From positions 62,001 to 126,000 of the forward strand of contig NZ_LWHG01000029.1 in assembly GCF_001625445.1 (NCBI RefSeq): a DNA stretch of 64,000 nucleotides. The letters run 5' to 3'. Source of the stretch: Haladaptatus sp. R4 (lineage in GTDB: Archaea; Halobacteriota; Halobacteria; Halobacteriales; Haladaptataceae). The position numbers and the translations under genes are program-made. The notes under the pieces were generated by a model. That model searched no databases. It was not told where the DNA came from and saw only the letters and a program-made list of their open reading frames with translations. Positions 13,044 through 43,037 of the stretch are shown one piece after another (the stretch's first letter is position 1; every line of letters starts with the position of its first letter).

Positions 13044-13909
13044 TCAGTCCCCTCCCGCCCGTTCCGTTGCGTCGGCAAGCGCACGCTGCGTGAGGACCCG
13101 GACCATGTTTTCCTTGTATTCGACGCTCCCGTGTTCGTCGGCCTCGGGATTCGACGCCTCCGCGGCGAGTTCACCCGCCCGCTTGAACAGGTCGGCACTG
13201 GGCGATTCGTTTTCGAGCGCTTCCGCGGCGTCGGGAACGGAAACGTTCGTGATATCGACCGCCGTCAGCGCGACGGTCGCGTCGGTGATGACGCCATCGT
13301 CCACTCTCACGCGAGCACCCACTCCGACCATCGCGTAGTCGCCGACCTTCCGTTTCAGTTTGTGATACGCGCTCCCCTCGTCTTCCGGCGGAACCGGTAC
13401 TCGGAGTTCGGTGGCGAGTTCCCCCTCCTTCAGGTTGTTGTCGTAGGGGAGAAGGAAGAACTCGTCCGCGGGGATGACGCGTTCGCCGTCCGGTCCCTGC
13501 GCGACCACGTCTCCCTCGTGAGCCAACAGTACGGTCGCCCAATCCCCCTTCGGGTCCGACTGGGCGACGAGCCGACGACCGTTCCGCGGTTGCGGATCTG
13601 CGGGTCCGCGACGAGCGGTGCGGTATCGGCGAAACTGCCGTACTTCTCGGCGATGAGCGGCGATTCCTCGATTTCGACGTGCCGCGTGAGGGCACCGATC
13701 TTCAGGTATCCGTCCTCCTCGCGAAGATAGTCGAGATCCTCGATGCGGTTCAGATCGACGACCGTCGACGGTCGTGCCAGTCGAAACCGCATCAGGGGAA
13801 CGAGGCTCTGTCCCCCGGCGAGGATGGTCGGTTCGTCGAGACCGTCGAGGAGGTCCACCGCCTCGTCGACGGTCGTCGGTTCGTGAAGTTCGAATTGTGC
13901 GGCTTTCAT
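13044..13909 (-). CDS. coxM: CO dehydrogenase medium (FAD) subunit, one frame break
   Basis: From [18 protein letters not shown] (13909), the FAD-binding PCMH-type domain shows [19 protein letters not shown] and [13 protein letters not shown], the two flavin-contact motifs, followed by a CO dehydrogenase flavoprotein C-terminal domain ([24 protein letters not shown] end). One base is missing near 13567; adding it gives GS[16 protein letters not shown] and 288 residues, the usual size. It moves electrons from CoxS to the quinone pool. The start overlaps the coxG stop as ATGA (13906-13909). Confidence 0.9.
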
Positions 13910-14492
13910 AGCAAGTTCCTGAGTCGGTTCGTGATACTCCGTCCCTGTTCGCTCTCGTCGACGTCCGACATCTGCTGCTGGATGTTCGTGAAAAACTGGC
14001 TCACTATCTTGTCGGCGACCGGGTTGAGTACCCGGCCGCCCAACTGTGCAATTCGCCCGGAGACGTCGGCTCCCGTCCACCACTCGACCTTCGATCCGAC
14101 GTCGTCGCTGATGGTCATTCCGGATTCCATCTCGAAACTGCTGTCCGAGGCGGCACCACCGCCGTGGCCACCATTTTGGGATACTCCCGTTCGATGATGG
14201 TGACCCGCGTTTCGAATCGCGGTTTCACGCTCCCGACGCCGATCTGCATCAACGCCGCGTACTTGCCCCCTTCCACGAACGCTCGATCCGCGACGACCTC
14301 CGGATCGACGTCGGGCAACGTCGGGACGTCCTCCTCCGGTTCGTAGTTGTCGAAATCGAAGTCGCCGTCATCCATCGGGACGATGTACCGACATCCCTTG
14401 AGCGCATCCCGAACGGCGACGGGATCCGACAATACGACCCAGGCGTCCTCCGGCTCTACCCCCTCCAGTTCGAATTCACCCTCGAACTCCAT
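13906..14492 (-). CDS. coxG: CoxG-like SRPBCC protein, one frame break, first gene of the operon
   Basis: MEFEGEFELEGVEPEDAWVV (14492) begins a CoxG/SRPBCC fold: DPVAVRDALKGC is the typical 'xxVAxClPGC'-like element, then EREYPKMVATA, and after the break SSFEMESGMTISDD, SKVEWWTGADVSGRIAQLGGRV and VADKIVSQFF. One base is missing near 14160; adding it reads GGAASDSSFEME and gives 195 residues. CoxG proteins are thought to anchor or recruit CO dehydrogenase to the membrane. It is the first gene of the nine-gene run, so the operon promoter should lie just above 14492. Confidence 0.85.
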
Positions 14493-14549
14493 GCCTGTAT
14501 GCTCCTGTCCGAGTCCGTAGACTCGTGTTCCTACCCAACCCGTGCAATG

Positions 14550-14855
14550 TTAAGTGTTACCTAGTGACACAATTTTCGTCACGCGTTTCGCGTCTATCAT
14601 CGAATCGACACTGTCGGATAGACCAATGTATCCGAAGCTATCGATCAAAGCCATCTCCTCCGCGAGTTCTTCGAGCGACATTTGGGTACCGATTCGGTCC
14701 AAGAGCAGACGGTCGCAACTGGCTGACCATCCCTTCTACGGCCGAGTCGTCCAGTTGCCGGGGAATATGGATAAAACCGCCGACGATATCCTTGGAATCG
14801 GATCGTTCGTGGTCTCCTCCGGGCCGAATTCGAGAACGATGCGGACGGAAGCCAT
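14550..14855 (-). pseudogene. Candidate small gene broken by two frame shifts
   Basis: The ATG at 14855 (MASVRIVLEFGPEETTND) and the stop at 14550 (…SDSVDSMIDAKRVTKIVSLGNT) are in the same frame, 102 codons apart, but a TAG interrupts. Between them another frame reads SDSKDIVGGFIHIPRQLDDS, which looks protein-like, so two compensating indels would restore about 100 residues. The last part alone (MSLEELAEEMALIDSFGYIG, from 14681) could be a 43-residue protein. I do not recognise the family. It lies 10 nt after the GDSL gene and 57 nt before coxG on the same strand. Confidence 0.4.
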
Positions 14856-32788: not shown

Positions 32789-33583
32789 TTATCCGGTAGA
32801 AGAGCGTTCACCGAGGGTTCGTTCGATGTTCTGGACGGTCCGGTCGAGGTGTGCTACGAAATCGTCGATGGTATCGTTGGTAACGCGATATTTGGGACAA
32901 TCCAGGCTCACAGCACCGCAGACTCGTCCATGAGGCTGATAAACCGGTTTGGCGACGGAATAGAGGCCGGTAACTACCTCCTCATCGTTGACGGCGTAGC
33001 CTCGTTCGCGAGTGTTTTCGAGTTCCGCGAAAAGCTCATCGGTAGTCGATATAGAGTGGTCGGTTTCATGGGGAAGTCCCCACTGATCCGTGATTCTCTC
33101 TACGCGCGAGTTACTACATTCGGCCAGGATGGCTTTCCCCGACGCGGTATTGTGCATATAAAACGTCCGTCGATCACTGAGAAACGTCGATTGGGAATCG
33201 TAAAGTTCGCTGTACAGTGAAACGACCCGTCCGTGTTCTTCGACACTGAAATCCGCTATTCGGTTCGTTCGGTCGTTGAGAGCAGTGATCTCTTCCTCGG
33301 CGATGTCGTAGATTTCCTTCCGGGAGATGACGTACTCCCCCAATTCGAAAAATTTCAGTCCCAAGTGGTAGAATTCGCCCTCCTTCACGACGTATCGCGT
33401 GTCCCGAAGGGTGGTCAGATGAGCGTGAACGGTACTTTTCGAGAGATCGAGTTCCTCGGCCAACTGGCGTAACCTGATACCATCGTGCGTCCTGATGGTC
33501 TCTATGACCGCTAAGGAAGTCTCGGTCGTCGATACCGTCGAAGCGGACGTCCCATTCCGTGTTACCATGTCCATAGATAACAT
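32789..33583 (-). CDS. IclR-family transcriptional regulator
   Basis: Winged helix SLAVIETIRTHDGIRLRQLA and ELDLSKSTVHAHLTTLRD, then effector domain NTASGKAILAECSNSRVERI, RERGYAVNDEEVVTGLYSVA and GRVCGAVSLDCPKYRVTND. ATGs at 33583, 33574 and 33568 are all possible; the last fits the family best. It is divergent from the YkvI transporter gene and is the likely regulator of that pair. Confidence 0.88.
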   Translation of the reverse strand: MLSMDMVTRNGTSASTVSTTETSLAVIETIRTHDGIRLRQLAEELDLSKSTVHAHLTTLRDTRYVVKEGEFYHLGLKFFELGEYVISRKEIYDIAEEEITALNDRTNRIADFSVEEHGRVVSLYSELYDSQSTFLSDRRTFYMHNTASGKAILAECSNSRVERITDQWGLPHETDHSISTTDELFAELENTRERGYAVNDEEVVTGLYSVAKPVYQPHGRVCGAVSLDCPKYRVTNDTIDDFVAHLDRTVQNIERTLGERSSTG

Positions 33584-33589
33584 TGGACA
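33568..33589. promoter_or_regulatory. TGTCC-N12-GGACA inverted repeat at the IclR start
   Basis: TGTCC (33568-33572) and GGACA (33585-33589) flank 12 bases at the start codons of the IclR gene, a position suited to autoregulation. Short arms, so chance is possible. Confidence 0.3.
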
Positions 33590-33935
33590 CCACTAATATG
33601 TTCGCTATACCCGAACTGGTTTAAACGTCGGTTGGCATCGACGAAGGTACTCTTTCGGAGCGGAATCCTCGTCTCCGAACCCTTTGCTACCCGAGTACAA
33701 GCGATATGCCGCGTTTTGATGCGGTGGACTGTTATACGGGAATTCTCGATGAGGAAACCAATTTCGTCGTTCGGTATTTAAACGAGAGGGATTTATCGGT
33801 GATGTCGAGGAGTAAAAATGCAACTCCGACATATAATTGTTCGTTAGGATCGATTCCTATATGGGCAAATAACCACATGAATTTCATAAATTTGGCGTAA
33901 AAACCTTAATATCCAATACTCACGAGTCATGGATT
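33590..33935. promoter_or_regulatory. Divergent promoter region
   Basis: The 346 bp between the IclR (minus) and YkvI (plus) genes are AT-rich near 33770-33930. GTTCG-N7-CGAAC at 33600-33616 is another possible operator half-pair. No gene seen. Confidence 0.4.
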
Positions 33936-35129
33936 GTGTTCGCATACCTCACAAAATCACGATTTCGACGGATCATGGTTCCAGCGATCGTTTTCCAATC
34001 GGTAAGCGTCGGAGGAGGATTTTCGACGGGCCGGGAGGTAGTGGAGTACGTAGCGAAGTATGGGGCGCTCGGAAGCGTCGCGATTCTCACCTACGTGACG
34101 GTGCTTGCGATCTGTGGTGCCCTCGTTTACGAGTTTTCGAGGAGATTCGACCTCTACGATTATAAATCGCTCATGAAGAACCTCATCTGGCACGGATGGC
34201 CCGTCTTCGAGGCAATCTACGTGATTCTCGCCGTCGTCATTATCGCAGTCGTCGCCTCCGCAGGGGGTAATCTGATGAATCAGATCCTCGGCGTTCCGGT
34301 GTTCTTGGCGAACGTTCTTCTCATCGGATTCATCTTCTTCGTCCTCTACTTCGGACGCGAAGCCATCGAGCGATTCAGCGTCTACGGTACGACGTTCATT
34401 TACGCGGTATATCTCGCCATGTTCGGATACGTCCTCGCAACCAACGGCGGACAGGCTCTCGATATCCTTCGGAGCGGGAGTACGGCATACGTGAACGATC
34501 CGAGCGTCCCTGCCGCGATCAAATCCGCGCTGATCTACGCCGGATATTCGCTCATCGGATTTATTCCACCGCTGTTCCTGATCGACCGGATGGAAAACCG
34601 TTCGGAAGCGGTCGTATCCGGCGTACTGAGCGCATTTATGCTTGGGATTCCCCTCGTTCTATCGTATCTATCCCTGCTGGCGTACTATCCCAACGGCGAC
34701 GTGATGGGTGCATCAGTGCCGTGGTTGGCGATGCTCGACCCACCAGTTCTGTTGGTGTGTTACGGAATCGCGATCGGATGGACGTTGACCGAAACCGGAG
34801 TCGGATTCGTTCACTCCATCACGGAACGCATCGATGAGGATATCAAAGAGTCAGATCATCGGTTCTTTGCCGCCAGGGACGGTCTCTCGTCATTGGAACG
34901 CGGATCAGTGGGACTACTGATCCTCCTCGGTGCGATAGCGCTCTCCCGAATCGGTATCATCAGCCTCGTCAGTGAGGTGTATCCGATTCTGGCCGTATTG
35001 TTCACCGCGGTACTCGTGATTCCCCTGCTCACCGTTGGACTCTATCGGCTATCGAATCCCGCATGGAAGCGCGAGTTTTGGCGAGAACGCGGTGCCGAAA
35101 CCCAAAGTAGCGGCATCGAGGCCGAATGA
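33936..35129 (+). CDS. YkvI-like membrane transporter (COG3949 type)
   Basis: A 397-residue protein with about ten membrane helices and an N-terminal SVSVGGGFSTGREVVEYVAK stretch typical of YkvI proteins, distant relatives of LeuT-fold transporters. Other segments: IIAVVASAGGNLMNQILGVP, AGYSLIGFIPPLFLIDRMEN and AIGWTLTETGVGFVHSITER. The start is GTG. Its stop overlaps the next gene as ATGA, so the two proteins are made together, suggesting the transporter imports the substrate of the racemase-like enzyme. Confidence 0.85.
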   Translation: MFAYLTKSRFRRIMVPAIVFQSVSVGGGFSTGREVVEYVAKYGALGSVAILTYVTVLAICGALVYEFSRRFDLYDYKSLMKNLIWHGWPVFEAIYVILAVVIIAVVASAGGNLMNQILGVPVFLANVLLIGFIFFVLYFGREAIERFSVYGTTFIYAVYLAMFGYVLATNGGQALDILRSGSTAYVNDPSVPAAIKSALIYAGYSLIGFIPPLFLIDRMENRSEAVVSGVLSAFMLGIPLVLSYLSLLAYYPNGDVMGASVPWLAMLDPPVLLVCYGIAIGWTLTETGVGFVHSITERIDEDIKESDHRFFAARDGLSSLERGSVGLLILLGAIALSRIGIISLVSEVYPILAVLFTAVLVIPLLTVGLYRLSNPAWKREFWRERGAETQSSGIEAE

Positions 35130-35845
35130 TGTACGGGTGGAGGAACCGGATCGGACTCGTCGTAACGTCGTCCGACAGAACGAGCGAGGGCGAGTACTTC
35201 CGGCACACACCCGATGGCGTTTCCGTACACGTGGCTCGCATGCTACTTGAGGATGGGGTCGCCGACGCGGAAACCTTGGAACGAATGTCGGCCGATGTCG
35301 AACGCTGTGCAAAATTGCTCAAAACCACCGATGTCGATGTTATCGCCTACTCCTGTACGACCGGTAGCCTGCTCAAGGGCGAGGGATTCGAAACGGAGAT
35401 CGAACGACGGATCGAAACGGTGGCCGGTGTTCCTGCGGTCGCGACGGCGGCGTCGATCAAGCGTGCGTTAGACGCACTCGATGTCGAATCGCTCACAGTT
35501 GCGACTCCGTACATACCGGAGCTCAACGAACTGGAAGTCGATTTTCTGGAGGATTCAGGCTACGAAGTGCTCGACATATACGGGTTGGGATGTAGGACCG
35601 ACGAAGAAATCTGTGCCCACCACCCGGAGATGGCATACCGACAAGCCCGGGAAATGAACCGGGAGGATGCTGACGCGATATTCATCAGTTGTACGGGGTA
35701 TCGAACGTTCGAGATCATCGACCGATTGGAACGGGATCTGGATAAACCAGTGATAACGAGCAACCAGGCGACGTTGTGGGATGCACTTCGGAAAATCGAC
35801 GTCGATTACTCCGAAATCGAGTTGGGCACCTTATTCCGACACTGA
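35126..35845 (+). CDS. Asp/Glu racemase superfamily enzyme, maleate isomerase/arylmalonate decarboxylase-like
   Basis: A 239-residue protein: MMYGWRNRIGLVVTSSDRTS, VIAYSCTTGSLLKGEGFE with the first catalytic-type Cys, VPAVATAASIKRALDAL, LTVATPYIPELNELEVDFLE and AIFISCTGYRTFEIID with the second Cys. This double-Cys layout is that of maleate cis-trans isomerases and related racemases; decarboxylase members keep only one. I infer an isomerase or racemase acting on a small dicarboxylate. It is translationally coupled to the YkvI gene. Confidence 0.85.
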   Translation: MMYGWRNRIGLVVTSSDRTSEGEYFRHTPDGVSVHVARMLLEDGVADAETLERMSADVERCAKLLKTTDVDVIAYSCTTGSLLKGEGFETEIERRIETVAGVPAVATAASIKRALDALDVESLTVATPYIPELNELEVDFLEDSGYEVLDIYGLGCRTDEEICAHHPEMAYRQAREMNREDADAIFISCTGYRTFEIIDRLERDLDKPVITSNQATLWDALRKIDVDYSEIELGTLFRH

Positions 35846-35903: not shown

Positions 35904-37097
35904 TCACAGGCGTGATTCGTACTCGAATACGCCGTCGAACGCCCGTTCGAGGATGTGCTCCATGTCGTCCACATCGGTCAAACGAGGATTTCCAGTGAGA
36001 CTTCCGTCTTCGAGTGCCTGCGCTGCCAACGCAGGAATCGCTTCGCGTTCGGCCGCCGTCTCGTCCAGCGTCCTGGGGATCCGGACCGAATCACCCAGTT
36101 CGCGTACCACACGAACCGCTTTGTAGGCCTCTAGCTGTGTTCGGCGGTTGCGGTCGATCGGTTCCCCGAGGCGCTCCGCGATAGTACAGAACTTCTCGGG
36201 AACTTGTGACAGGTTGTACTCCATCACGTACGGAAGGATGATCGCGTTGACCAATCCGTGAGGAACACCAAACTGGCCGCCGACTTGGTGAGAGAGCGCG
36301 TGTACTGCACCCAATCCAGCGCCGTTGAACGCCATCCCGGCCTGCATACTTGCCCTGGCCATCGCCGTGAGCGCAGCAGGGTCGCCGTCACGGTACTCGA
36401 CGGCACGGGGGAGGAATTCGCCGACTTTCTCGACCGAATCGAGCGCGATAGCGGAGGTCTGACTTTGTGCCTTGATCGATACGTACGCTTCGATAGCGTG
36501 CGTCAACACGTCCATTCCAGTCGCCGCCTTTACCGGCGGTGGTGCACTCGCCGTCAGATCGGGATCGATCAACGCGAGGTCGGCGAGGAGTTTCACGTCC
36601 CCGATTTCCTCTTTGACGTCGGTCTCGGAGTCCTTCACGATACACCAATGACCGACCTCGCTCCCGGTTCCGGACGTCGTTGGTATGTAGATACTCGGTG
36701 GAGGGGATTCCGGGACGTTTCCACTCCCTTCGTAGTCGAGAATGTGGCCGTCGTTCGCTGCGATGATCGATGCCGCTTTTGCGGTGTCCAACGACGACCC
36801 ACCACCGATTCCGAGAATGAGGTTCGCGTCGGCGTCGTCGTAGGCGTCCGCTGCCTCGTGAACGACTGTGTCAGTCGGATCAGGCTGAACACCGTCGAAG
36901 ATGGCATACTCCTTTCCGGCTTCCTCGATCGATTCGAGTACCGGTTCGAGAACGCCCGCCTCGCGAACACCTTCGTCGGTCACGACGAGCGCACGTTCCG
37001 CATCGAATCGGTCGATGTACGAACCGACTTCGTCTGAAGCTCCACGACCAAACAGGATCCTATTCGGGACGTTCCATTCCGCTAATTGTTGTGTCAT
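35904..37097 (-). CDS. Iron-containing alcohol dehydrogenase (group III)
   Basis: A 397-residue protein with NAD motif LILGIGGGSSLDTAKAASI, IYIPTTSGTGSEVGHW, metal-site GMDVLTHAIEAYVS and GAVHALSHQVGGQFGVPHGL, giving the Asp and three His ligands for Fe. Family members oxidise or reduce alcohols and lactaldehyde-type compounds. It lies 230 nt downstream of an ALDH gene on the same strand, which suggests an alcohol to aldehyde to acid sequence, possibly on a gamma-glutamylated amino alcohol. Confidence 0.9.
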   Translation of the reverse strand: MTQQLAEWNVPNRILFGRGASDEVGSYIDRFDAERALVVTDEGVREAGVLEPVLESIEEAGKEYAIFDGVQPDPTDTVVHEAADAYDDADANLILGIGGGSSLDTAKAASIIAANDGHILDYEGSGNVPESPPPSIYIPTTSGTGSEVGHWCIVKDSETDVKEEIGDVKLLADLALIDPDLTASAPPPVKAATGMDVLTHAIEAYVSIKAQSQTSAIALDSVEKVGEFLPRAVEYRDGDPAALTAMARASMQAGMAFNGAGLGAVHALSHQVGGQFGVPHGLVNAIILPYVMEYNLSQVPEKFCTIAERLGEPIDRNRRTQLEAYKAVRVVRELGDSVRIPRTLDETAAEREAIPALAAQALEDGSLTGNPRLTDVDDMEHILERAFDGVFEYESRL

Positions 37098-37330
37098 TGT
37101 TGTGTCACCGTGTTCTATGAGTCGCGTGAATCCGGCACTGCGTGCAGCGTTCCGGTTACGGTGTAGATAGTACCAGTATTCGATTCATACCCCTTACTCC
37201 CCATACCTATGAGTATTTAAATAGTCGTGGCGGGTCGCTTGGATTTCTTCGTCCCAGGAGCACACCCGACAGGGAACGTATCCACCTCGCGTTCGCCCCA
37301 TCGTTCGGACAAGACGACAGATCGATGCGG

Positions 37331-38779
37331 TCAGTACGGGTCCATCCCGTCGTGCTCGACGACGACGCTGTTTACGGTGGTGAACGCCTCGACGCCCTCG
37401 TAACCGCCTTCCCGTCCCAGACCGCTCTCCTTGTTCCCTCCCCACGGGCTTTGAGGCATCGACACGGGGAACGTGTTGACTGCGACGAGGCCGTGATCGA
37501 GTCGGTCAGCGATGCGAGTGGCGTGCAACCCGTCGGTCCAGATGGACGCCGCGAGCGCGTACGGCGAGTCGTTCGCCACGGCGACGGCTTCATCGACCGA
37601 TTCGACGCTCAGTATCGAGAGCACTGGGCCGAATATCTCCTCGCGCGCAATTTGCATGTCCGGCGTCACGTCATCGAACACGGTCGGTTCGACGAAGTAT
37701 CCGTCCTGCAACTCCGGATCGTCCGGGACACCCCCGCCGGTTCGGAGGGTCGCTCCCTCCTCCCGTCCCGATTCGATGTAGCCGAGAATGTCGTCCTGCG
37801 CTTCCGCCGAGATGACCGGCCCCATATCAGTCGTCGGATCGTCCCCGGATCCGAGGGAGATACGTTCCGCTTCCCGGACCACGAGTTCGGTGAATTCCGC
37901 CCTCACGTCTTCGTGGACGATGGCGCGTGAGGTAGCGACGCAATTCTGCCCGGCATTGGAGAAGATTCCTCGGGCGACGCCGCGCGCCGCATTCTCGACG
38001 TCGGCGTCGGGGAGGACGACCGCCGGAGCCTTCCCTCCGAGTTCCAGGTCGACCGGCGTGATGTTCGCTGCCGCAGCCTCCAGCACCTGTTGACCGACCG
38101 CAGTCGAACCGGTAAACGTGATCAGATCGACGCCGGGATGATCGCTCAGGGCCGCTCCCACCTCGCTCCCCGACCCCGGAACGAGGTTTACGACGCCGTC
38201 GGGGAACTCCTCGGCGAGAATATTCCCGTACCTCATCGTCGATAGCGGTGCTCGACTCGGTGGCTTCGCGACGACCGTATTTCCCGTGGCGAGGGCGGCC
38301 GCAATCCCTCGGGACCCCAACAGGAGCGGATAGTTCCACGGGATGATGTGTGCGGTAACGCCGTAGGGGACCCGTTTCGTGTAGTTGAGCCGGTTCGTCG
38401 AAGTTGGGATCGTGTCACCTCGAACCTTGTCCACCACACCCGCGAAGAAGCGAAACTGCTGGGCGGTTTCCATGACCTCGCCTTCGGCCGTTCCGAGACA
38501 TTTTCCGGTCTCCGCGACGAGGAGTTCGCTGAGTTCGTCCCGATCCGCCTCGATCCGCTCGGCGACGGCAAGCAATCCACGTTCACGTCGAGCGGGGTTG
38601 CTCTCCGCCCACTCCTTTCGTACACTCCGCGCAGCGTCGATCGCTTCGCTCGCGTCGGTTCGTGTTCCGGTCGAGACGGTACCGACCGTCTCTCCCGTAG
38701 CGGGATTTTCGACGGAACGCTCGGTCCCACCTCGATCCTGCCCGTCGATTCGCATCTCGTAGCTGTGCATACCGGTCAC
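37331..38779 (-). CDS. NAD(P)+-dependent aldehyde dehydrogenase
   Basis: A 482-residue ALDH: AHIIPWNYPLLLGSRGIAAA with the catalytic Asn, LITFTGSTAVGQQVLE, PVDLELGGKAPAVVLPDADV with the catalytic Glu, IFSNAGQNCVATSRAIVHED with the catalytic Cys, and MPQSPWGGNKESGLGREGG. It resembles betaine-, succinate-semialdehyde- and gamma-glutamyl-aldehyde-type enzymes, and the substrate cannot be read from sequence. ATGs at 38779 and 38770 are both plausible. It follows the permease gene by 90 nt. Confidence 0.9.
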   Translation of the reverse strand: MTGMHSYEMRIDGQDRGGTERSVENPATGETVGTVSTGTRTDASEAIDAARSVRKEWAESNPARRERGLLAVAERIEADRDELSELLVAETGKCLGTAEGEVMETAQQFRFFAGVVDKVRGDTIPTSTNRLNYTKRVPYGVTAHIIPWNYPLLLGSRGIAAALATGNTVVAKPPSRAPLSTMRYGNILAEEFPDGVVNLVPGSGSEVGAALSDHPGVDLITFTGSTAVGQQVLEAAAANITPVDLELGGKAPAVVLPDADVENAARGVARGIFSNAGQNCVATSRAIVHEDVRAEFTELVVREAERISLGSGDDPTTDMGPVISAEAQDDILGYIESGREEGATLRTGGGVPDDPELQDGYFVEPTVFDDVTPDMQIAREEIFGPVLSILSVESVDEAVAVANDSPYALAASIWTDGLHATRIADRLDHGLVAVNTFPVSMPQSPWGGNKESGLGREGGYEGVEAFTTVNSVVVEHDGMDPY

Positions 38780-38869
38780 AACCCTCGGACCCGGCCTAAA
38801 TATTTCCCGGCTGATGTGGGACTGTTTATAAAATACGTCGGGAGAGCCGCCAGCAGACGGGGAGTCGGA

Positions 38870-40402
38870 TCACTCGGAGGGTTCTCGAACGGTGTCGCCC
38901 GTCGAATCGCGCCGCTCGGCCATGTCGGGAGCGGCGTCGTTCGTCGCCGCGTTCTGCTGGTTCAGGGCGAAATCCTCCTCCGGTGCCCGCACTAGACGGT
39001 GGCGACCCCTGACAGCGAAATAGATGATCCCGCCCGCATACCACAGCGCCGCTCCGATAACGCCGAACCGATACGACGGGTTCAAAAAGAGGAACACGAA
39101 GGTAACGGCCGCGATAACGATTGCGACCACCGCACCGAACACGCCGACCGGACTCCGATACGGTCGTCTGAGGTTCGGATACTCTCGCCGGAGCAGGATG
39201 AACGCCAACGACTGCATGATGTACGAGATCATGGCGCCGAACACCGCCATGTTCAACAGAACCGCCCCCACCGGACTGTCGCTCGGCGTGAGCCAGATCA
39301 ACAGCGCCGCGACGTAGCCAATCAACGAACCGGCGATCAAAGCGACGTGTGGCGTATCGCGCTCGTCGTGGGTGACCGAGAGCCACTGTGGGAAGTACCC
39401 CGCCCGGGACAGCGAGTAGATGTTACGCCCGAACGCGAAGATGATCGCGTGAAAGCTCGCCACCAATCCGGCCACGGCGATCAACGAGAGCAACGCCGCA
39501 CCGATGCTGCCGGGGAATATGGTTTTGAAGCCCAAGAACAACGGATTATCCGCTTGGCCGACCTTTGCCGCGCCAGGTGCGATGCCGCTGTTGAGGAACA
39601 ACGTCAGGAACGCCGTGATGATCAGCGTCACGATGCCCAGTATCGTCGCTTTGGGCAGGTCGCGCTCCGGATCGTGTGCCTCTTCCGCCGCTAACGGCAG
39701 TTCCTCGATGGCGAGGAAAAACCAAATCGCGAACGGCAACGCCAGGAAGATGCCCTTGATGCCTTTCGGCAATAGTTTGCTCTGACCCGAATCAGCGGGT
39801 ACGGTCAGTGCCCAATCGAACGAAAAGTGCGGAATCGCACCGATGAAAAAGACCGCCAATATGCCCAACGCGAGGAAGGTGATGAAGACGGTGAACCGGA
39901 AGCTTTCCTTGACGCCCACTATGTTGAGTCCGACGAAAATACCATAGAATATCGCCCACCAAACCGGCGCGGGCATGGAAAAACTGAGCAATGCCTGTGT
40001 AACCGAGTTCATGTAGCCGCCGATACCGACGACGATGACCGCGGTGGTGATGACGTACTCCATGTTCTCACCCAAACCCGTGATAAAGCCACCCCAGGGA
40101 CCCATGGCCGTCCGTCCGAACGAATAGGCACCCCCGGTGTGGGGGAGCGCCGGTGCCATTTCCGCGATGGAAAAACAGAGGCCCAGATACATGACGGCGA
40201 TGATGATCGTTGCGATGACGAGGCCCATGAACCCACCAGCGGCGAGGCCGAAGTTCCAGCCGAAGAAATCGCCCGAGATGACGGCACCGACGCCGAGTGC
40301 CCACAGCGACCAAATCCTCGCGTGCCGCCGTAAGCCACGATCTTCGAAATAACTATCATCCACATCGTTGTACGTAACGCTACCCCCTTCTTTATCTGAC
40401 AT
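38870..40402 (-). CDS. Ethanolamine-permease-like APC transporter
   Basis: A 510-residue protein with 12 helices. The N-terminal stretch LRRHARIWSLWALGVGAVIS, GDFFGWNFGLAAGGFMGL, CFSIAEMAPALPHTGGAYSF and TAMGPWGGFITGLGENMEYV is that of the ethanolamine permease subgroup of the amino acid-polyamine-organocation family. PLAAEEAHDPERDLPKA and AFGRNIYSLSRAGYFP are further APC motifs. The C-terminal 45 residues are polar. It leads an apparent minus-strand unit with ALDH and Fe-ADH and is divergent from the Bat regulator, whose neighbour is a glutamine-synthetase-like ligase. Confidence 0.88.
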   Translation of the reverse strand: MSDKEGGSVTYNDVDDSYFEDRGLRRHARIWSLWALGVGAVISGDFFGWNFGLAAGGFMGLVIATIIIAVMYLGLCFSIAEMAPALPHTGGAYSFGRTAMGPWGGFITGLGENMEYVITTAVIVVGIGGYMNSVTQALLSFSMPAPVWWAIFYGIFVGLNIVGVKESFRFTVFITFLALGILAVFFIGAIPHFSFDWALTVPADSGQSKLLPKGIKGIFLALPFAIWFFLAIEELPLAAEEAHDPERDLPKATILGIVTLIITAFLTLFLNSGIAPGAAKVGQADNPLFLGFKTIFPGSIGAALLSLIAVAGLVASFHAIIFAFGRNIYSLSRAGYFPQWLSVTHDERDTPHVALIAGSLIGYVAALLIWLTPSDSPVGAVLLNMAVFGAMISYIMQSLAFILLRREYPNLRRPYRSPVGVFGAVVAIVIAAVTFVFLFLNPSYRFGVIGAALWYAGGIIYFAVRGRHRLVRAPEEDFALNQQNAATNDAAPDMAERRDSTGDTVREPSE

Positions 40403-40595
40403 TGTTCCAACTCTGAATTATCTATGATCTCCTAAACTGTATCTCCGGCATTTTGGGAGCACTTATCAGCGTGCGCCGAGTTTGCGGGGAGACGATGACT
40501 CGGCGCTCCTCATCGGGGACAAAAACGCCGCTGAAATATTTCAAGATTTTCAGTTATCAACAACCATATAGGGATACGATGGTTCTATTTCCGCC

Positions 40596-41300
40596 ATGAT
40601 CGAATACTCGTTTAGAATAAAGCACGAGGGATGTTGGACCAACAGTTTTAACGATGCGTTCCCGAACGCGCGTGCATCCATCATCTACTCCTATCTCGTT
40701 CACGGGACGAGCGTCACGATGATCGAGGTGACGCAGGTCGAAGAGGGGGAAATCGACGACCTCGTCGATTGGCTAGAGGATCATCCGGTGATGAACACGA
40801 GTCGACTCGTCAGTTTCACCAGCGCCACCAACCGGGGCGTCGTCTGTCTGGAAGGCGATTACGACACCGAGACCGAACCGGTACTGAACGTACTACTGGG
40901 AAACAGTTGTTTCCCGACGATACCGGCGACCGTCGCCGATGGGTGGGAACATTGGGACGTCCTCGCCCCGACGCACGAACAGGTGAGTCGCGCTCACGAG
41001 GAGTTACAGCAACTAGGCACCGTACAGATCGACTCGCTGCACTCCCCCGAGTTCGAGGGGATGTTCATGGGACTTCTCGAAGTCAAGAAAGCGATACAGA
41101 ACCTCTCCGCTCGGCAACTCGAAGTGCTCTCGCTCGCCATAGAAGAAGGATACTACGACTCCCCCCGTTCGTGTAAACTCAAAGATTTAGCCGAACACGA
41201 CCCGACGGGCGTCTCGACCGTCGGAGAACACCTTCGGCTCTCGGAGGCGAAGATTCTGAAAGCGATCGGTCCGATGCTGGACCAACCCGCCAAGGACTAG
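40596..41300 (+). CDS. Bat-type HTH_10 transcriptional regulator
   Basis: A 234-residue protein with an N-terminal sensor-like domain (MIEYSFRIKHEGCWTNSF) and a C-terminal HTH_10 motif: LSARQLEVLSLAIEEGYYDS, PRSCKLKDLAEHDPTGVSTV, GEHLRLSEAKILKAIGPML. Such regulators are specific to haloarchaea. The ethanolamine-type permease gene is divergent and the GS-like gene converges, overlapping its stop by 4 nt. It likely controls this cluster. Confidence 0.9.
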   Translation: MIEYSFRIKHEGCWTNSFNDAFPNARASIIYSYLVHGTSVTMIEVTQVEEGEIDDLVDWLEDHPVMNTSRLVSFTSATNRGVVCLEGDYDTETEPVLNVLLGNSCFPTIPATVADGWEHWDVLAPTHEQVSRAHEELQQLGTVQIDSLHSPEFEGMFMGLLEVKKAIQNLSARQLEVLSLAIEEGYYDSPRSCKLKDLAEHDPTGVSTVGEHLRLSEAKILKAIGPMLDQPAKD

Positions 41301-42628
41301 AACTCGTCCCGATACTCCTCGCGTTCCCATTCGGTCACGTGGTCCATCGATCGGTCGAACTCGTCCCGTTTTAACTGTACAAATTCCTCGACGAGCGCCG
41401 AACCGAGGGCATCCTCGATCACTTCGTCGTTTTCGAGGTGTTCGAGCGCCGTCCAGAGGGTACGGGGGAGACTCTCGTAGCCTTCGTCGTAGGCGTTCTC
41501 GATCGTCGGTTCGCCCGGATCGATCTCGTTTCGGATACCGTCCAATCCAGCCGCGAGCGAGGCCGCGAGACCGAGATACGGGTTACACGACGAGTCGGGT
41601 ACCCTGTGTTCGATACGCGTCGCCGAATCGAGTTCGGGGGGTAGGCGAACCACCGTCGAACGGTTGTCCGGTCCCCACGCGATATTGACCGGGGCCCAGA
41701 TTCCTGGGAGGAGCCGTTTGTACGAGTTGACCGTCGGCGCGCAGATCGCTGTCAGCGCTTTCATGTGTTCGAGGAGGCCACCGACGAAATGCCGTCCCGT
41801 CTCGGAAAGCCCGGACTCCCCGACCGGATGCTTTCCCGCGGGAAATCGGATATCGTCGGTATCGCTTTTGAACTCGTTCTCCGACCCCGTACGGTCCCAC
41901 AGGCTGAGGTGGAGATGCATCCCATTGGCGTCCTCGTGTGAGTGCGGTCGGGGCATGAGCGTCGTTTTACATCCGTGCTGCCGCGAGACGGATTTGAGCA
42001 TATGGCGGAGGAACATGACGGTATCCGCCGTCCGCAGGGCATCGTCGTACTCGATATTGATCTCGTACTGCCCCGGTTGCGATTCCTGATGGACACCGAG
42101 AACGTGGCCCCCCGCCGCTTCCATCGCGTTCGTCCAATCGCGGATGAGGTCCGATCCCATGTCGAGGGCGTCGAGGTCGTACGAACAGCGGTCGTTGTAG
42201 GGGACCCATCCACCATCGTCGTCCGGACGTAGGAGCGAGAACTCGGTTTCGACACCGACACGTGCCGTGTATCCCTCCGACGCGAGGTCTTCGAGGACGC
42301 TCCTGAGCGCACTCCTGCTGCAGAGGTCGAAGCGTGAACTATCTACGTTGGTCAGATCCGTGAAGACCGCCGCCGTGTCGGCGGCCCACTCTATCGGCAT
42401 CACGGAGTCGACGTCGGGGACCGCCATCATGTCGCCCGCTTCGGCACCGTATTTCGGGTCGTCGAGGAGCGCAGGTTCGAGGGTCAGTTCGGCGACCCCG
42501 TTGGCGAACCCGACTCCCTCTTCGATCGCGTGTGATGCTTCGTCACCGGAGAGGGAGATTCCGCGTGCAACGCCATTGATGTCGGTCCAGACCAGGCGTA
42601 TGGTTTCGTAATCTGAAAGGGAAGTCAT
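41297..42628 (-). CDS. Glutamine-synthetase-like gamma-glutamyl amide ligase
   Basis: A 443-residue protein with the N-terminal beta-grasp IRLVWTDINGVARG and the catalytic GS domain: ARVGVETEFSLLRP, GHVLGVHQESQPGQYEIN, DANGMHLHLSLWD, NSYKRLLPGIWAPVNIAWGP, NRSTVVRLP and ATRIEHRVPDSSCNPYLGLA. GS-like proteins without the classic regulatory Tyr join glutamate to ethanolamine, putrescine or other amines. With an ethanolamine-type permease and two dehydrogenases nearby, a glutamate-ethanolamine (or amine) ligase is the most likely role. The start is followed upstream by an AT-rich promoter region. Confidence 0.85.
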   Translation of the reverse strand: MTSLSDYETIRLVWTDINGVARGISLSGDEASHAIEEGVGFANGVAELTLEPALLDDPKYGAEAGDMMAVPDVDSVMPIEWAADTAAVFTDLTNVDSSRFDLCSRSALRSVLEDLASEGYTARVGVETEFSLLRPDDDGGWVPYNDRCSYDLDALDMGSDLIRDWTNAMEAAGGHVLGVHQESQPGQYEINIEYDDALRTADTVMFLRHMLKSVSRQHGCKTTLMPRPHSHEDANGMHLHLSLWDRTGSENEFKSDTDDIRFPAGKHPVGESGLSETGRHFVGGLLEHMKALTAICAPTVNSYKRLLPGIWAPVNIAWGPDNRSTVVRLPPELDSATRIEHRVPDSSCNPYLGLAASLAAGLDGIRNEIDPGEPTIENAYDEGYESLPRTLWTALEHLENDEVIEDALGSALVEEFVQLKRDEFDRSMDHVTEWEREEYRDEF

Positions 42629-43037
42629 TGGGACGCTTTCTCATCGTAGTATCGGGGCATATGTGTTTACCCCCAAACTTGCGATTTATTAATAATCGAC
42701 TTCGGCGTTGAATGTAGACGCGAGAAATACTACTTCCACGACGAAAACGGAACGGGAGACGACTACGGGTGGCGTATCCACACGGATAGACCGACCGAAA
42801 GCACCTATTCGACCGCGTGAATTCTCTACTTCCGTACTACCTGTCCCCCGTTTCGAACTACTTCCCATATTGATAATAAACCCGTGAAATAGTGTCGGTT
42901 TAGACTGCATTTAATATCGTTAATAACGAATGAACTGTTCGAAAATGAGTTCGAACAGTCACGCAAGAGTTCAAAACAGCGAAATTCACCTGGACGACCG
43001 AGCGGGTCTATAACCTACCGGTGAATCCACCCAGTCG
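42629..43037. promoter_or_regulatory. Divergent promoter region between GS-like and DsbA-like genes
   Basis: About 410 bp, AT-rich near 42680-42700 and 42880-42960. TTCGAA and GTTCGAA-type words occur, including GAACTGTTCGAA near 42930 and GAGTTCGAACAG near 42948, which share the palindrome core CTGTTCGAA and may be an operator. No gene supported. Confidence 0.35.

Follow-up and report, generated by a model that had tools for sequence, protein, structure and literature searches.

We analyzed a 64,000-nucleotide stretch of DNA from Haladaptatus sp. R4 (hereafter, the window), which lies on a 426-kb contig of this haloarchaeal genome, and focused on a five-gene cluster at positions 35904–42628 that is a candidate for ethanolamine catabolism by gamma-glutamylation. 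On the minus strand, the cluster encodes, in order, a glutamine synthetase (GS)-fold gamma-glutamyl-amine ligase of 443 amino acids (41297–42628), probably a gamma-glutamylethanolamide synthetase; an APC-family ethanolamine permease of the Eat type (38870–40402); an aldehyde dehydrogenase (ALDH; 37331–38779), probably acting on the gamma-glutamyl-acetaldehyde amide; and an iron-containing alcohol dehydrogenase (Fe-ADH; 35904–37097), probably a gamma-glutamylethanolamide dehydrogenase. The gene for a Bat-type (HTH_10) regulator (40596–41300; PF04967) lies on the plus strand between the ligase and permease genes; it is convergent with the former, the 3′ ends overlapping by 4 bases, and divergent from the latter across a 193-base gap. 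ALDH matched PF00171 over its full length (543 bits) and contained the catalytic motifs ELGGK and QNCVA, and Fe-ADH (PF00465/PF25137) was likewise full length with its catalytic motifs present. All five open reading frames were intact, uninterrupted, and of the expected families, in agreement with the original prediction that these genes form a group; no hydrolase gene was found within the window's own cluster, as had also been predicted.

Active site and phylogeny of the ligase

The assignment of the ligase was based on its match to PF00120 (348 bits), active-site replacements, phylogenetic clade, and gene neighbors. Its scores were below every curated GS or ligase equivalog cut-off, including those of TIGR00653 (325 bits; cut-off, 429) and TIGR03105 (351 bits; cut-off, 470). 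The active-site residues were read from an alignment with E. coli GlnA, E. coli PuuA, and haloarchaeal paralogs and are numbered as in S. typhimurium. The ammonium-site residues D50, Y179, and E327 were replaced by A, S, and W, respectively, in the window ligase and in every ortholog examined from the two genomic settings described below (types A and B); control canonical haloarchaeal GSs retained all three. The residues for metal, glutamate, and ATP were mostly intact (E129, E131, E212, E220, H269, H271, R321, R339, R344, E357, and R359), with N264 and G265 changed to D and A. Loss of the ammonium site with retention of the metal, glutamate, and nucleotide residues is the pattern of GS-fold gamma-glutamyl-amine ligases, and the same loss marks GlnA4/PauA7 (PMC6529630) and Haloferax GlnA-2 (PMC8394153). 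Judged by its active site, the ligase is not a glutamine synthetase.

An IQ-TREE phylogeny, which left out S. coelicolor GlnA4, placed the type A and type B ligases in a single haloarchaeal clade (support, 100/100), separate from a clade of canonical GSs (100/100) and from a GlnA2-like clade including H. larsenii GlnA2 (100/100). The AlphaFold model of the ligase adopted a GS fold (predicted local distance difference test score [pLDDT], 76; predicted template modeling score, 0.85), and its structure matches did not separate GS from GmaS, so that the substrate was not settled by structure.

Other GS-like genes were observed outside the cluster. Two reading frames each were needed to cover the canonical GS gene of the window's genome (G000:C11:408958-410225) and a second GS-like gene, suggesting that the assembly contains base errors (probable frameshifts), although none in this cluster. 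For the second gene, of the GlnA2-like kind (G000:C29:315200-316203; L076:8873-10215), the split may reflect either a pseudogene or an error in the assembly, and the gene adjoining it (L076:7599-8699) had an amidohydrolase-like N-terminus and no NCBIfam match. At another locus (L225:6905-8215 and 13422-14708), two GS-like genes that have lost the ammonium site lie approximately 5 kb apart, recalling the glnA-2/glnA-3 pair of Haloferax mediterranei.

Two genomic settings and a shared regulator

Gene content, active-site replacements, phylogeny, synteny, and co-occurrence were observed directly, synteny from the retrieved flanks of the orthologs and co-occurrence from a sample of 392 Halobacteria genomes (86 genera); additional searches contributed Haladaptatus salinisoli and other named species. 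Ligase orthologs (55–100% identity) were present in 18 of the 392 genomes and 10 of the 86 genera; beyond these haloarchaeal sequences, identity fell sharply, to 41% in bacteria. The nearest relative for the cluster was H. salinisoli PSR8 of the same genus, which carries it on a 487-kb plasmid.

The orthologs were found in two settings. Type A, to which the window belongs (ligase identity, 66–83%), comprised the regulator, ligase, ALDH (65–81% identity), and Fe-ADH (about 68–86% identity). An M81 (MlrC-type) gene lay between the ALDH and Fe-ADH genes in 12 of the 15 loci, so that ligase, ALDH, Fe-ADH, and the proposed M81 hydrolase stood together in these 12, and most loci contained a four-gene ATP-binding cassette (ABC) importer, instead of which the window carries the Eat-type permease. 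The loci lacking M81 were those of the window, Halorussus litoreus (L059/L086), and a fragmentary metagenome-assembled genome (L089), for which no matches beyond the ligase and Fe-ADH were obtained. In type B (L070–L075 and L094; ligase identity, 55–57%), the same regulator and ligase adjoined EutA, EutB, and EutC, together with the ABC importer of type A in six of the seven loci; no importer was in view on the 10-kb contig of L071 (Natrialba taiwanensis). The regulator gene stood beside the ligase gene in nearly all loci of both types. ALDH, M81, and Fe-ADH accompanied the ligase only in type A, type A clusters contained no ammonia-lyase, and the genus Halobellus included species of both types. 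Because the genes for the Bat-type regulator, ligase, ALDH, and Fe-ADH recurred together in type A loci of several haloarchaeal families and the pairwise distances of the cluster genes correlated (r = 0.64–0.87), their grouping is not due to chance.

Upstream of the ligase in most type A loci, we found a conserved operator-like motif of 18 bases with a consensus near CGCAAGTYTGCGGGTGAA. In the window, this motif (CGCAAGTTTGGGGGTAAA; 42666–42683, minus strand) is separated from the ligase start codon by 37 nt and directly follows an A+T-rich, TATA-box-like stretch (the ATTATTAATAAAT region; 42684–42695, minus strand) that, from its sequence, is a putative archaeal core promoter. With the window and H. 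salinisoli both excluded from training of the matrix, this site was its top match in the 64 kb. Among the 15 type A loci, the motif beat 99% of simple shuffles in 11, was weak in three (L063, L064, and L088), and was absent from L089; type B ligases lacked it at the corresponding upstream position. The cluster is probably under the control of the Bat-type protein, which is predicted to bind this motif.

Adjacent to the cluster lies a distinct small group of genes (32789–35845), for an IclR regulator, an unassigned membrane protein, and an Asp/Glu-racemase/arylmalonate-decarboxylase-like protein. The last of these genes (35126–35845), which is 'ectoine EutA'-like, was unrelated to the ethanolamine EutA.

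Substrate, product, and alternative explanations

We consider it likely that these genes represent a haloarchaeal ethanolamine-catabolic cluster working by gamma-glutamylation, and we infer the substrate, the reaction order, the role of M81, and the regulation from sequence data. In the proposed pathway, the Eat-type permease would import ethanolamine, and the ligase would use ATP to join it to the gamma-carboxyl group of glutamate, yielding gamma-glutamylethanolamide. Fe-ADH would convert the alcohol of this compound to an aldehyde, and ALDH would oxidize the aldehyde to gamma-glutamylglycine. A hydrolase, in most relatives probably the cluster M81 protein, would then release glutamate and glycine, the latter feeding the glycine cleavage system; in the window's genome, this last step would be performed by an enzyme other than a cluster M81 protein. 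The original prediction had proposed import, glutamylation, and successive alcohol and aldehyde oxidation of ethanolamine or another amine, and this scheme gained support from the EutABC neighbors, the loss of the ammonium site, and the glycine-cleavage neighbors described below.

The strongest pointer to the substrate is that EutABC is linked to the importer, regulator, and ligase genes that also occur in type A. EutBC acts on ethanolamine; because the type B orthologs of the ligase, regulator, and importer adjoin EutABC, ethanolamine is the predicted substrate. EutB was present in all six sampled type B genomes versus 39 of the 392 genomes overall (p = 7e-7; genus level, 2e-3). These 39 genomes (19 of the 86 genera) mostly lacked this ligase clade, and the haloarchaeal ethanolamine ammonia-lyase seems to be little described. 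No EutB was found in the window's genome, which is about 96% complete, and the classical Eut (EutBC) pathway is therefore not its route. The permease narrowly passed the curated ethanolamine model TIGR00908 (385.6 bits; cut-off, 381.75); its only ortholog among the 392 genomes was that of the window's genome, with another in the separately added H. salinisoli.

Glycine as the end product was consistent with the neighbors of type A clusters. GcvT-GcvH-GcvPA-GcvPB adjoined the cluster in L062, and parts of the glycine cleavage system were found next to others (GcvPA-GcvPB in L066; GcvPA in L065; GcvT and GcvH in L068; GcvT in L069 and L088). The same end product was proposed for Streptomyces (PMC6529630) and Phaeobacter (PMC10132767).

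The M81 protein is the candidate for the hydrolase lacking from the original set. Cluster M81 proteins carry PF07364 and PF07171; the M81 protein of H. salinisoli has the accession WP_227355738.1. Their orthologs (at least 64% identity) occurred in exactly 10 of the 392 genomes, all of them type A (10 of the 12 type A genomes; p = 3e-18; genus level, 7e-6), and M81 proteins elsewhere in the sample were at most 45% identical to them. Mutagenesis of MlrC showed that E56, H150, D184, H186, and H208 matter (PMC9506587), and the motifs holding these residues were retained in all 12 cluster M81 copies. We propose the cluster M81 protein as the hydrolase because its orthologs are confined to type A genomes and retain the active-site motifs; it is probably a gamma-glutamylglycine amidohydrolase. 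We found no link of M81 to gamma-glutamylglycine hydrolysis in the open-access literature. The only M81 protein found in the window's genome (L080:9776-11185; G000:C29:343776), encoded on the same contig 240 kb away and adjoining an ABC importer, was 34–36% identical to the cluster M81 proteins and retained the active-site residues. Matches to PF07722 in this genome were rejected as PuuD-type hydrolases; they were weak, and one was GMP synthase subunit A.

Several observations weigh against ethanolamine glutamylation or against parts of it. The permease exceeded the TIGR00908 cut-off by just 4 bits, and its H. salinisoli ortholog (372.9 bits) fell 9 bits below it. The relatives' ABC importer was most similar to polyamine/aminoethylphosphonate (Pot/Phn) importers, below every cut-off; its binding protein had no sequence relative in the PDB, and the structure model was uninformative (pLDDT, 30). 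Type B keeps the ligase beside an ammonia-lyase for probably the same substrate. M81 was absent from the clusters of both the window and Halorussus litoreus, a search of the window's genome with E. coli PuuD, run without a positive control, found no homolog, and in the three annotated contexts viewed from bacteria and other haloarchaea, M81 proteins were in unrelated settings with no GS-like neighbor. Finally, the co-occurrence p-values were repeated at the genus level and ignore relatedness beyond that.

The similarity to Pot/Phn systems also bears on the alternative that survives best, although we consider it unlikely, namely that the cluster glutamylates and oxidizes another amine or amino alcohol, such as a polyamine, isopropanolamine, 3-aminopropanol, or methylamine. 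GS-fold ligases act on many amines, the nearest bacterial ligase sequences in a pattern scan were type III/GmaS-like, and the structure matches included GmaS. A polyamine ligase was disfavored by the position in the tree, in a clade separate from H. larsenii GlnA2, and by the score against the gamma-glutamylputrescine synthetase model NF045547 (345.7 bits; cut-off, 650), on which H. larsenii GlnA2, the positive control, reached 697.1 bits. The EutABC neighbors in type B, the glycine-cleavage neighbors, which suit a C2 amino alcohol, and the presence of an alcohol dehydrogenase where an amine oxidase would stand also argue for ethanolamine over these compounds.

A less probable alternative, which we regard as quite unlikely, is that gamma-glutamylethanolamide serves storage, detoxification, or signaling, with free acetaldehyde, glycolaldehyde, or choline-like compounds as the substrates of ALDH and Fe-ADH. 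In its favor, type B loci would have no need of a catabolic ligase beside their ammonia-lyase, and the best family model of ALDH was betaine-aldehyde dehydrogenase, with a score below the cut-off; against it stand the association of ALDH, M81, and Fe-ADH with the ligase exclusively in type A and the restriction of M81 orthologs to type A genomes. That the GS-like gene encodes a glutamine synthetase taking up ammonia released elsewhere, for example by the type B ethanolamine ammonia-lyase that it adjoins, is very improbable, since the active-site replacements speak against ammonia assimilation, type A clusters have no ammonia-lyase, and the window's genome contains a canonical GS, even though the best solved-structure matches of the ligase were true GSs of methanogens.

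Comparison with known systems

Gamma-glutamylation of ethanolamine is known from Streptomyces and roseobacters, and our search of the open-access literature turned up no archaeal example. The original prediction that no such archaeal pathway had been described thus held, within the papers searched, for ethanolamine, but not for amine ligation in general, since Haloferax mediterranei GlnA-2 was published in 2021 as a glutamate-putrescine ligase (PMC8394153). GlnA-2 is likewise an archaeal GS-like amine ligase without D50, Y179, and E327; unlike the window ligase, it uses putrescine and is encoded outside a dehydrogenase cluster, and its relative H. larsenii GlnA2 belongs to another clade.

The Streptomyces coelicolor GlnA4 pathway (SCO1610–SCO1615; PMC6529630) resembles the haloarchaeal cluster in having a ligase without ammonium-site residues, an alcohol-type dehydrogenase, an ALDH, a regulator, a permease in some species, and glycine as the proposed product. 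It differs in using a short-chain dehydrogenase (SDR) and a glutamine-amidotransferase/amidohydrolase-type hydrolase, whereas the haloarchaea have Fe-ADH, a probable M81 hydrolase, a Bat-type regulator, and a ligase clade of their own. The same four enzyme steps were proposed for the Phaeobacter ethanolamine operon (ETAGA/GAADDH/GETADH/GGAH with EtoVWX; PMC10132767), a bacterial system with a TRAP importer and an RpiR regulator in contrast to the Eat or ABC importer and Bat-type regulator of haloarchaea. On a plasmid of Thermomicrobium roseum (NC_011961), the annotated eat, 52% identical to the window permease, is located two genes from a GS-like gene and near an alcohol-type dehydrogenase; however, in the tree, this ligase joined E. 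coli PuuA, with long branches, outside the archaeal clade, and an SDR replaces Fe-ADH. Slightly closer bacterial permease homologs (Phyllobacterium and Mesorhizobium) had no SDR- or GS-type neighbors in the plasmid records viewed. The cluster M81 proteins retain the Zn-binding and catalytic residues of MlrC/M81 metallopeptidases (PDB IDs: 7ylq and 3iuu), but the known substrate of MlrC is linearized microcystin/nodularin, and hydrolysis of gamma-glutamylglycine is newly proposed here.

For the joint claim, we regard the chances as evenly balanced. It holds that haloarchaea possess a full ethanolamine-to-glycine route whose components (the ligase clade, Fe-ADH, and Bat) were recruited separately from those of bacteria, that M81 is the gamma-glutamylglycine amidohydrolase, and that a conserved importer–ligase–regulator core is coupled either to an oxidative module or to B12-dependent EutABC, even within Halobellus. 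If true, some haloarchaea could use ethanolamine, one of the main products of the degradation of bacterial and algal lipids, and would need neither ethanolamine ammonia-lyase nor its cobalamin to do so. The finding would also give a function to a clade now generically annotated as 'glutamine synthetase' and a first metabolic role to some M81 'microcystinase-like' proteins, and it would provide a test system with one core connected to either of two ethanolamine routes.

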